Shown here one piece after another: positions 1,739-5,493 of a stretch of 5,493 bases of DNA; position 1 is the stretch's first letter, and the number at the start of each line of letters is the position of its first letter. The notes below the pieces were generated by a model. The model was not told the origin of the DNA. It worked only from the letters and a program-made list of their open reading frames with translations, and did no database searches. Both the position numbers and the translations under genes were made by a program. This DNA is from Candidatus Fermentibacterales bacterium. Lineage in GTDB: Bacteria; Fermentibacterota; Fermentibacteria; Fermentibacterales; JAFGKQ01. The stretch lies in contig JAFGKQ010000061.1 in NCBI GenBank assembly GCA_016928495.1, positions 1 through 5,493 of the forward strand. Direction: 5' to 3'.

Positions 1739-3763
1739 ATGCCGCGCCCCATTACGGCCGAGGATCTCTTTCGCTTTCAGCTGCTCTCCGGGACAGCCGT
1801 CTCGCCGGACGGCAGCATGGCAGCCTACACCCTGACCAGGACCGACAAGACCAGCCAGAAGCGATACTCGAACATCTGGGTGGTGGACCTGGCCACCGGC
1901 CGGAGAAGGCAGTTCACCCGTGGGGACCAGGTGGACAGGTCCCCGGCATGGGCGCCGGACGGCAAGCACCTTGCCTTCGTCTCCTGCCGCGATGCCGGAT
2001 CGTCCGAGGGCCCCGGGCAGGAGCAGATCTACCTCATCCCGGTCGACGGGGGAGAGGCGCGGAAGCTGACCAGCCTCGAGGGGCGCATCCACTGCTTCGA
2101 CTTCTCGCCCGACTCACGCTCGATCTTGGTCCTCCTCACGAAGAAGGACGCCGAGCAGAAGGAGCTGGAGAAGGACGAGAAGAAGAGGAAGCTCGGCATC
2201 GTGTCGAGGAGGATCGAGAGGCTGTTCTTCAAGCTGGACGGCATGGGCTACAGGCCGAAGGAGCTCCCGCACATCTGGCTCGTGAACGCCGGCAGCGGCA
2301 AGGCCGGGCAGATCACTGACTCCCCCGTTCACTCGGAGTCCGGGCCTCCGTGCTGGTCGCCCGATTCGAAGCGGATAGCCTTCACCTCCAACGTGAGCAA
2401 GGACCCCGATCTGGATCCCAGCGCCATCGACCTGTTCGTCATGAAGGCCGACGGAACCGGCAGGAAGCGCCTGAAGACCCCCGAAGGGCCGAAGTTCGAG
2501 CCGTCTTTCTCGCCCGACGGCAAGCGGCTTGCATGGCTCGGGATGGAGGGCAAGGGCCAGGGCTGGAGGCTGACCCGCCTCTGGGTCGCTCCCGCGAGCG
2601 GCTCCGGCGAGGCCGTGTGTCTCAGCCGGGACTTCGACATCAACATCACGGCATGGACGATCAACGACCTCCCCGAGGGCCTGGGCGAGACGGCACCCGT
2701 ATGGTCCCCGGACGGCGGGAGCATCTACGTCCAGATCGCCCACCACGGCGCCACCCGCCTGGCCCGCTTCTCGAGCGATCCCGACAGGCCGTCCATGGAG
2801 GAGGTGATCTCCGGGGACCTGGTGGTAGGCCATCCCGTCTTCGACGGCGCGAGGAAGAAGGTGGTCTACGCGGAGGGCAGCATGGGCAATCCCGGCAGGC
2901 TCCGCCTGAGGAACCTCGCCAAGGGCTCGGACAGGGACCTCGCGGACCCCAACCGCTGGCTGAGGTCTTCCATAGACCTCGGCATGGTCGAGGAGGCATG
3001 GATCGACGGGCCTGACGGCAACCGCATCCAGGGCTGGATAATGAAGCCCCCGGGGTTCAGCCCCCGCCGGAAGTACCCCTCCATTCTGGAGATCCACGGA
3101 GGCCCCAGGGTCCAGTACGGCCACTTCTTCATGCACGAGTTCTACTTCCTGGCTGCAGCCGGCTACGTGGTGCACTTCTGCAATCCCAGGGGCGGCCAGG
3201 GCTACGGCGAGCAGCACTCCAAGGCCATCCTCGACAACTGGGGCACGGTCGACTACGACGACCTCATGGCCTGGACCGACCACTTAGCGGAGAAGAAGTA
3301 CATCGACCCCGGCAGGATGGGCGTCACCGGCGGGAGCTACGGCGGGTACATGACCTGCTGGATAGTGGGACACACCGACAGGTTCAGGGCCGCGGTGACC
3401 CAGAGGTGCGTCAGCAACCTGATAAGCATGTACGGCTCCAGCGACTTCAACTGGTCCTTCCAGAGGGAGTTCGGTGACAAGCCGCCATGGGAGAGCCTGG
3501 AGAACTACTGGCGGCAGTCTCCGATAGCCTTCGTGGGCAACGTGAAGACGCCTACCATGGTGATCCATAGCGAGAGCGACCTTCGCTGCGCCATCGAGCA
3601 GGGCGAGCAGTTCTACGTGGCTCTGAAAAAGCTGGGGGTCCCCACGGAGATGATACGCTTCCCCGACGAGCCTCACGGACTCTCGAGGGGAGGGAGGACC
3701 GACAGGCGCATCGACCGCCTGAAGCACATACAGCGCTGGTTCGACACCTGGCTGAAGGCCTGA
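1739..3763 (+). CDS. S9 family serine peptidase (prolyl oligopeptidase / acylaminoacyl-peptidase type)
   Basis: This 674-residue enzyme of the prolyl oligopeptidase family should cleave short peptides or N-acyl aminoacyl residues. Residues about 15-400 form the N-terminal beta-propeller with TolB-like repeats: SPAWAPDGKHLAF (68-80), FDFSPDSRSI, PPCWSPDSKRIAFTSN (203-218), EPSFSPDGKRLAW and APVWSPDGGSIY. The alpha/beta-hydrolase domain covers about 415-674, with HGGP near the oxyanion hole (453-456). The catalytic triad is complete: Ser533 in GGSYGGYM, Asp614 in HSESDLRC and His646 in EPHGLSRGG. The Lys/Glu-rich stretch at 135-151 is a propeller insertion seen in related enzymes. There is no signal peptide or membrane segment, so it is probably cytoplasmic, in peptide turnover. 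The start is supported by GGGAGG at 1729-1734. The layout is closest to acylaminoacyl peptidase-like S9C enzymes, but exact specificity cannot be read. The TGA stop is backed by an in-frame TAG two codons later. Confidence 0.95.
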   Translation: MPRPITAEDLFRFQLLSGTAVSPDGSMAAYTLTRTDKTSQKRYSNIWVVDLATGRRRQFTRGDQVDRSPAWAPDGKHLAFVSCRDAGSSEGPGQEQIYLIPVDGGEARKLTSLEGRIHCFDFSPDSRSILVLLTKKDAEQKELEKDEKKRKLGIVSRRIERLFFKLDGMGYRPKELPHIWLVNAGSGKAGQITDSPVHSESGPPCWSPDSKRIAFTSNVSKDPDLDPSAIDLFVMKADGTGRKRLKTPEGPKFEPSFSPDGKRLAWLGMEGKGQGWRLTRLWVAPASGSGEAVCLSRDFDINITAWTINDLPEGLGETAPVWSPDGGSIYVQIAHHGATRLARFSSDPDRPSMEEVISGDLVVGHPVFDGARKKVVYAEGSMGNPGRLRLRNLAKGSDRDLADPNRWLRSSIDLGMVEEAWIDGPDGNRIQGWIMKPPGFSPRRKYPSILEIHGGPRVQYGHFFMHEFYFLAAAGYVVHFCNPRGGQGYGEQHSKAILDNWGTVDYDDLMAWTDHLAEKKYIDPGRMGVTGGSYGGYMTCWIVGHTDRFRAAVTQRCVSNLISMYGSSDFNWSFQREFGDKPPWESLENYWRQSPIAFVGNVKTPTMVIHSESDLRCAIEQGEQFYVALKKLGVPTEMIRFPDEPHGLSRGGRTDRRIDRLKHIQRWFDTWLKA

Positions 3764-3861: not shown

Positions 3862-5133
3862 CTACCTGATCAGCGCGATCGTCCTGGAGACCGTCTGCTG
3901 GCCCAGGGTGCAGACCGCCCGGTAGGAGCCGACCGGCAGGCTACTCAGGTCCGTGGTGAGAAGGTGCTGACCCGCCTGCAGGAAGCCCCCGTCCAGGGTC
4001 TGGACCAGCCGGCCATCGACCGAGAACAGCAGCAGCGTCACCTGCTGGGCAGCGGCCAGGCCCAGCTCCAGCGAGAGCGTCCCGCTACACGGGTTCTCGA
4101 GGACGGTGAGCCCTGAGGATCCGATCTCGGCGCTGGACTCGTCCGCGACCCCGGTCTCGTAGCCCCAGTAGATCCTGACGAAGCCGTCGTAGGCCCCGCA
4201 GAGCATGTCCAGGTGCCCATCCATGTCCCAGTCGATCATGTAGGGCCTGGCGGCGTAGCCGGGATCGATGTAGCTGGAGCCGGAGTTGTAGGTCAGCCAG
4301 GCTCCGGCTGCCAGTACCGGGCTGGAGTTCGTCCCGGTGTTCTCGTAGTAGTAGACGTAGCCGTCCTGGTATCCCGCCACAACATCCTTCTTGCCGTCCC
4401 CGTTGCAGTCCTCGACGTCAGGCACTACCCTGTAGAGGTTGATCGTCTTGCCGTCGGCCTCCAGGTAGCTGAAGCCGGTGAGCTGCGGGTTGCCGGGCGT
4501 TCCGCTGTTGAGGTAGAGGCGGATCGATGGTGCGTTCCCGTAGTAGTCTCCCTGGGAGCCCACGACGAGGTCGAGCAGCCCGTCCTCGTTCCAGTCCACG
4601 ACGACGGGAGCCGCGTTGTAGCCGACGTCTATGGTGCTGCCGCCGGCAGTGAGATGGCCCACGAAGTGCAGCGAAGGGTAGGTGTCCGCGTTGTCCGTTG
4701 CCTGGTAGTAGTCGATCATGCCGTCTCGGCCGCCTACCAGGATGTCCAGATCACCGTCGCCGCTCCAGTCCACGACCTGTGGACTAGTGGCTCCGGTGCA
4801 TCAACCGTAGTTGCAGACTATGTCCGTTCCGTCCGCCTGGATGTAGTCGTAGGTGCTGAACACGGGAGACGGGTTGGTGCCCTCGTTGGGATACCAGCGT
4901 ATCTTGCCGTAGTCCGTGTAGCCGGGCGAGTAGTACTGCCCGACTATCAGGTCCCTGAGCCCGTCACCGTCCCAGTCCGCCACGAACGGGTCGCTGTAGC
5001 CCCCTATGTCTATGTCCGCGCCGGAGCACTCGATGTACTCCATGGCGCCGTATACGGGCGGCCAGGCCATGGCCGCCCCGGTACAGACGCAGACGGGAGC
5101 CAGAGCCACCAGCGCCTTCCGGATCGCATCCAT
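3862..5133 (-). CDS. Secreted FG-GAP/VCBS repeat protein with in-frame UGA at codon 111 and C-terminal sorting tail
   Basis: Read through the UGA (4803-4801), this gene gives 423 residues. Residues 1-23 are a signal peptide (basic MDAIRK, hydrophobic core, AMA cleavage site), so the protein is exported. Five FG-GAP-like repeats follow, each with a calcium-loop motif: DWDGDGLRDL (53-62), DWSGDGDLDI (122-131), DWNEDGLLDL (180-189), DCNGDGKKDV (242-251) and DWDMDGHLDM (301-310). Such repeats usually form a beta-propeller. Residues about 340-423 resemble a type IX-like sorting or FlgD-Ig tail (NPCSG, LLLFSVDGRLVQTL, GSYRAVCTL, terminal TIALIR). The ATG at 5133 is preferred over the GTG at 5139 because GGGAGGT sits four bases upstream of it. 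Both halves share one frame, and the part after the UGA has no further lesion. The UGA may encode selenocysteine, or this may be a nonsense mutation or sequencing error. Without readthrough the product is a 110-residue fragment with one repeat. No binding partner or enzymatic role is visible. Confidence 0.8.
4765..4803 (-). promoter_or_regulatory. In-frame UGA followed by a SECIS-like hairpin (candidate selenocysteine recoding site)
   Basis: On the minus strand the UGA occupies 4803-4801 and is followed by UGC (Cys). Thirteen bases later begins a 9-bp stem, CUAGUCCAC (4787-4779) with GUGGACUGG (4773-4765), having one U-G pair and a 5-base loop AGGUC (4778-4774). The loop starts 22 bases after the UGA. 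Bacterial SECIS elements place a small G-containing apical loop roughly 16-37 bases after the UGA, and the E. coli fdhF loop, as I recall it, is AGGUCU. I see no clear bulged U in the stem. The right arm also encodes the conserved VDW of the repeat, so part of the pairing may be coincidental. No tRNA-Sec, SelB or SelD gene lies in the window to support decoding. Confidence 0.35.
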
Positions 5134-5163: not shown

Positions 5164-5493
5164 CTAGGATAAAACTAAGCAAGCTATCGTCCTGCGCCAA
5201 GACCCGTTGCTATGGTCTTCCGCCTCCAGCTCCCCGGCAACCCGGGCGGGGAGCCTGCCGATCTCCGAGAGCTTCCTGACCAGGTTCCCCATGCTGTCGA
5301 ACGGCCTCATGCAGAGCTCGTACTCCTCCCGTGTGATGCTGCCGGTCCGGGGGAGGCAGAACAGCAGCATCCCCGCCGGCGAGGCCATCAGGGTCCGGAG
5401 GGTCCCGCAGGGGAACTCCTCGCACTCCGCACAGCTGTCCAGGCCCCTGTCGATCGCGCAGGGCCGGGCCTTGCAGCTCCTGTCCGCCAGGCG
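5164..5493 (-). CDS. DUF3795-like cysteine-rich protein (5' partial)
   Basis: The minus-strand frame is open from the window edge to a TAG at 5166-5164, giving the C-terminal 109 residues; the start lies outside. The visible part begins RLADRSCKARPCAIDRGLDS, followed by CAECEEFPC, giving the spacing C-x4-C-x8-C-x2-C-x4-C. This is the pattern of the second half of DUF3795 proteins, which are small predicted zinc-binding or otherwise metal-binding cytoplasmic proteins of unknown function. After the Cys cluster comes a mostly helical region (ITREEYELCMRPFDSMGNLV). The internal ATG at 5388 falls after the Cys cluster and is not taken as a start. The C-terminal 30 or so residues (ELEAEDHSNGSWRRTIACLVLS) look poorly conserved. 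It ends 30 bases upstream of the FG-GAP gene on the same strand, so a shared transcript is possible but not shown. The family call is from memory of the motif. Confidence 0.75.
   Translation of the reverse strand, partial: RLADRSCKARPCAIDRGLDSCAECEEFPCGTLRTLMASPAGMLLFCLPRTGSITREEYELCMRPFDSMGNLVRKLSEIGRLPARVAGELEAEDHSNGSWRRTIACLVLS

Follow-up and report, generated by a model that had tools for sequence, protein, structure and literature searches.

A predicted selenoprotein family built on exported five-bladed FG-GAP propellers in Candidatus Fermentibacterota and other bacteria

The window, meaning here the whole stretch of DNA that was analysed, covers 5,493 nucleotides from a Candidatus Fermentibacterales bacterium. 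Its plus strand carries two ordinary genes, one for a member of the phosphatidylethanolamine-binding protein family (PF01161, 1273-1719) and one for a prolyl oligopeptidase family S9 peptidase with PD40 propeller repeats (1739-3763). On the minus strand, a Cys-rich DUF3795 fragment (5164-5493) extends past the window edge. The gene considered here also lies on the minus strand. A frame check of the window yields a frame of 423 codons with a single internal stop, a UGA at codon 111, and the codon that follows this UGA is TGC (Cys). This agrees exactly with the initial annotation, which had described a lone in-frame UGA at this codon with a Cys codon next to it. The gene contains the following features:

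3862-5133, minus strand: probable selenoprotein gene (ATG at 5133, TAG at 3864-3862, 423 codons) whose product is predicted to be an exported FG-GAP propeller with five blades and, C-terminally, a sorting/Ig-like tail
5065-5133, minus strand: putative N-terminal signal peptide, MDAIRKALVALAPVCVCTGAAMA (called by eye; helix 2-19 in the model)
4801-4803, minus strand: UGA codon 111, predicted selenocysteine (UGA shared at this alignment position by 122 distinct genes)
4798-4800, minus strand: Cys codon, residue 112, predicted partner in a Sec-Cys pair (family alignment)
4765-4787, minus strand: bacterial SECIS-type hairpin of 9 bp with apical loop AGGUC (4778-4774), 22 nt past the UGA (folding, conserved pairing)
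3871-4116, minus strand: C-terminal domain resembling the T9SS Por_Secre_tail / FlgD Ig-like domain (weak in the window protein; several relatives above the curated cut-off)

The encoded protein matches PF13517 (FG-GAP_3) in five stretches (E = 3.1e-20). In an AlphaFold2 model (pLDDT 89), propeller strands occupy residues 27-326 and an Ig-like tail occupies residues 341-421; Foldseek matches comprise FG-GAP and related propellers (BBSome, CRTAC1, ITFG2, and PVL lectin). Together with the putative signal peptide, these results bear out the earlier description of an exported protein with calcium-binding FG-GAP propeller repeats. The FG-GAP/VCBS propellers (PF13517 and PF01839), such as integrin alpha, CRTAC1, ITFG2, and the fungal PVL lectin, share with the window protein both the repeats with DxDxDG calcium loops and the propeller fold. 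However, the window protein has five blades and an insertion, containing the predicted selenocysteine (Sec) and the adjacent Cys, that precedes the inner strand of blade 2. To our knowledge, such a Sec-Cys insertion is known in no FG-GAP protein. The best structural overlay by VIA-align is with the five-bladed GH43 propellers (Z ~19.8, rmsd 3.2 over 254 residues). The window protein nevertheless has only 7-14% identity to the GH43/GH32 glycosidase propellers and shows no sign of glycosidase function, and the overlay of the model is evidence of fold, not of function. The C-terminal tail of the window protein scores 12.4 bits against Por_Secre_tail (cut-off 23), while four relatives (L041, L021, L089, and L110) score 24.4-29.8 bits.

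In the model, Sec 111 and Cys 112 lie in the loop that precedes the innermost strand of blade 2. At the equivalent loop position, an Arg is present in blade 4 in 64 of 80 members from the phylum and in blade 5 in 63 of 80. On the plan of the propeller, this arrangement would probably bring Sec, Cys, and Arg face to face around the central pocket.

A lone stop in one gene of a metagenome-assembled genome looks the same whether it is recoded or whether the gene for an ordinary FG-GAP protein has acquired a nonsense mutation, has decayed into a pseudogene, or contains a base-call error, and this assembly is fragmented (337 contigs, 81% complete). Conservation of the UGA distinguishes these explanations. 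Within the same genome, a paralogue on contig C143 that is 42% identical to the window protein has UGA at the same codon (VCNYG-U-CTGATSPQVVDW in the window protein, VPSG-U-CTGATNPQVVDW in the paralogue). When a single protein was used as the query against genome contigs, no matches were obtained; an alignment query recovered the wider family. Across the phylum (Ca. Fermentibacterota), clear members are found in all but 6 of 42 genomes, and nearly all have exactly one UGA. This gives 94 distinct phylum genes with UGA at a single aligned site: the window gene, its paralogue, and 92 genes from other genomes. A scan of GTDB species genomes adds 28 distinct genes from outside the phylum whose UGA aligns with this site, in candidate division WOR-3, Chitinivibrionales, Sedimentisphaerales and other Planctomycetota, Verrucomicrobia, Bacteroidales, and others, for a total of 122. 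In one genome (bacterium PL23a_bin.125; L140, 13-7927), six UGA-containing members lie in tandem on one contig. Alignment of homologues, which had been proposed as a check on whether the site holds an ordinary Trp, Arg, or Gly, thus finds UGA in other genomes as well.

Since the same UGA recurs in 121 other distinct genes, a base-call error is ruled out, and the nonsense mutation or base-call error that had been named as the main rival is refuted. The sequence past the UGA is also under strong purifying selection, with a median dN/dS of 0.085 (91 pairs, which are not independent); hence the protein is produced at full length and maintained by selection. The probability left to mutation or error is negligible. 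An open frame across the UGA could equally reflect a suppressor tRNA or an altered code that inserts some other amino acid. However, 36 of the 94 phylum genes end with UGA as their ordinary stop codon, and therefore the code has not been reassigned. Given this use of UGA, together with a hairpin of bacterial SECIS geometry after nearly all of the sites and a tRNA-Sec with anticodon TCA, decoding as another amino acid is extremely improbable.

The hairpin, CTAGTCCAC-AGGTC-GTGGACTGG, is located at 4787-4765, and its loop begins 22 nt past the UGA. The folding energy of the 60-nt stretch that starts at the UGA is -32.6 kcal/mol. The loop is similar to that of E. coli fdhF, which is AGGUCU. In the published model for bacterial SECIS elements, a loop of 3-9 nt with a G within its first two positions caps a stem of 4-16 bp, at a spacing of 16-37 nt and with an energy of -7.5 kcal/mol or lower (PMC13188914). 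The window hairpin, with 9 bp, the AGGUC loop, and the 22-nt spacing, falls within this model. An Rfam search of the window gave no match. Hairpins of the strict type (-7.5 kcal/mol or lower) follow 83 of the 122 family UGAs, compared with 4.8% of control codons located farther along the same loci, and because of this difference the window hairpin is not a matter of chance.

Pairing within the stem was scored for the phylum genes over seven pairs, in fixed columns defined by the protein alignment. In register, 89% of the cells are paired; with one arm shifted by 1-2 bases, the figure falls to 25-43%. One of the stem pairs varies among A-T (66), G-C (10), G-T (5), C-G (4), and T-A (3). Codon choice within the stem is similarly biased. 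The stem Pro codon is CCA in 83 of 91 genes and CCG in the other 8, while CCA accounts for 257 of 1685 Pro codons elsewhere in the same genes; all 87 stem Val codons are GTG, versus 665 of 2838 elsewhere (p-values near 1e-54, computed ignoring the relatedness of the genes). The other blades of the same genes provide the best, internal control: pairing is 6.81 of 7 at the Sec blade and 3.27-3.74 of 7 at the equivalent site of the others. In homologues that have Gly-Cys and no Sec, the hairpin is lost, with 1-3 of the 7 pairs. The hairpin is therefore kept through compensatory changes and is under selection as RNA. The 9-bp hairpin reported at first, with its loop AGGUC 22 bases past the UGA, is thus confirmed, and compensated across the family.

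The GTG within the hairpin (4773) raises a different explanation, in which translation stops at the UGA and reinitiates at this codon to give a second polypeptide from a 303-aa frame. GTG can initiate translation, and 87 of the 91 phylum genes counted have it at this position. However, members from WOR-3 and at L140, L143, and L163 have TGC, GCG, GAG, and GGA rather than GTG, with the stem pairing kept. In addition, the break would split a propeller blade within its first strand, and the family is accompanied by Sec machinery. The production of two polypeptides is consequently very improbable.

The initial annotation had proposed a search of the same genome for selA, selB, selC, and selD, and all four are present, selA as a fragment. 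The selB gene scores 306 bits, over its cut-off (C111), and the selA fragment adjoins it at the contig end. The tRNA-Sec scores 74 bits, and ARAGORN assigns it the anticodon tca. Two neighbouring selD genes score 342 and 301 bits. Each gene of this pair (G000:C329:357-1283 and 1732-2646; L008 and L009) itself has an in-frame UGA within a CAGU motif, and the presence of two Sec-containing SelD genes seems unusual. Across the phylum, selB is over the cut-off in 35 of 42 genomes and tRNA-Sec is found in 36 of 42. Among the genomes outside the phylum that have UGA members, selB is over the cut-off in 18 of 22, and at least one of the other four has a long selB fragment.

The machinery, the conservation of UGA in 122 genes, the compensated hairpin, and the dN/dS of 0.085 all support the recoding first suggested for this locus, and the probability that the UGA at codon 111 is decoded as Sec is put at roughly 97%. 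SelB and tRNA-Sec would decode the codon, directed by the hairpin immediately 3' of it. The product would then be exported and folded as a five-bladed, calcium-binding FG-GAP propeller that ends in a sorting tail. Judged from sequence, the gene very probably specifies a true selenoprotein with this anatomy, an exported five-bladed propeller with Sec-Cys in the blade 2 loop.

The motif shared by the family is (G)-Sec-Cys-x-G. The C-x3-U-C motif originally read from the window sequence turns out to be a feature of a small subgroup only, since Cys 107 is present in 5 of 80 phylum members. Among the 94 phylum genes with UGA, 85 have Cys directly after the Sec site and 9 have Pro, Gly, Ala, or Asn there; Sec is therefore slightly more conserved than Cys. 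Two subfamilies, with CUPKTGA (L089, L111, L113, and L118) or TUGHAAT (L123, L062, and L063) at the site, have kept Sec and lost the following Cys. Most homologues without Sec have Gly at the Sec site and retain the next Cys. True Cys-for-Sec forms are rare, with one clear case (L120). In L146, L149, L150, L153, L155, and L195, Gly-Cys replaces Sec-Cys, in some cases with an additional Cys four residues upstream (CxxxGC); selB is still present in several of the corresponding genomes. In one tandem pair (L132 and L072, G015:C35), one copy has Sec-Cys and the other has Glu-Thr. Because its hairpin is intact, with 7 of 7 stem pairs, the Glu-Thr copy seems to have lost Sec only recently.

The predicted product would most likely be an extracytoplasmic selenol/thiol redox enzyme or a redox-active binding protein, in which Sec would act as the nucleophile and the adjacent Cys as the resolving partner. 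A DsbD N-terminal domain (PF11412), absent from the window protein, is fused to two UGA members, L158 from Planctomycetota (6.4e-8) and L190 from Verrucomicrobiales (2.5e-14). In DsbD, this domain mediates extracytoplasmic thiol-disulfide exchange. These fusions and the Sec-Cys motif thus support an extracytoplasmic redox role, which the sequences make the somewhat more probable function. A serious rival is the binding of a metal or metalloid, or the formation of a structural selenenylsulfide, by the Sec-Cys pair on a surface propeller, with no redox catalysis. Related FG-GAP propellers bind ligands, and the abundance of paralogues within genomes points to diverse ligands. The neighbour genes of the members sampled outside the phylum include no shared redox partner, and the DsbD/CcdA membrane domain, found in only 3 of 42 phylum genomes, counts against a simple Dsb link there. 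Against a binding or structural role stand the DsbD N-terminal fusions, which occur in two phyla, and the rule that most selenoproteins of known function use Sec for redox chemistry (PMC13188914). A role in binding or structure is possible, though the less probable of the two.

Like other bacterial selenoproteins, for example formate dehydrogenase and SelD, the window gene has a UGA, a hairpin 16-37 nt further on with an early G in the loop, and Sec machinery in the genome; unlike them, it belongs to a different protein family. A review from 2026 catalogues 119 selenoprotein families and subfamilies of prokaryotes, including those of Haft and Tolstoy 2025, in what its authors call the "most comprehensive inventory to date" (PMC13188914), and FG-GAP, VCBS, and propeller families do not appear among the 119 entries. 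This is in line with the earlier statement that none of the described selenoproteins was known to be of such a type. The NCBIfam selenoprotein models have no match in six family members at E values up to 1. A literature search on selenoproteins with FG-GAP/VCBS, Fermentibacter, or WOR-3, which covered few subscription journals, returned nothing relevant, and an earlier mention elsewhere is possible. The selenoprotein family is regarded here as one not described in the literature surveyed. It is likely to be a large, uncatalogued family that spans multiple phyla and has several paralogues per genome. Its exported calcium propellers, each of five blades, would carry a Sec-Cys active site, and Sec was previously unrecognised in this fold.

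Genome pipelines would treat the UGA as a terminator and truncate these genes near residue 110, which hides the family from standard annotation. Its recognition would add a new fold to the selenoproteome and would place Sec on exported proteins of several phyla. It also raises a testable question, namely the role of a selenol-thiol pair on an extracytoplasmic propeller. Since many genomes carry several copies, the family may represent a major use of selenium in Fermentibacterota.
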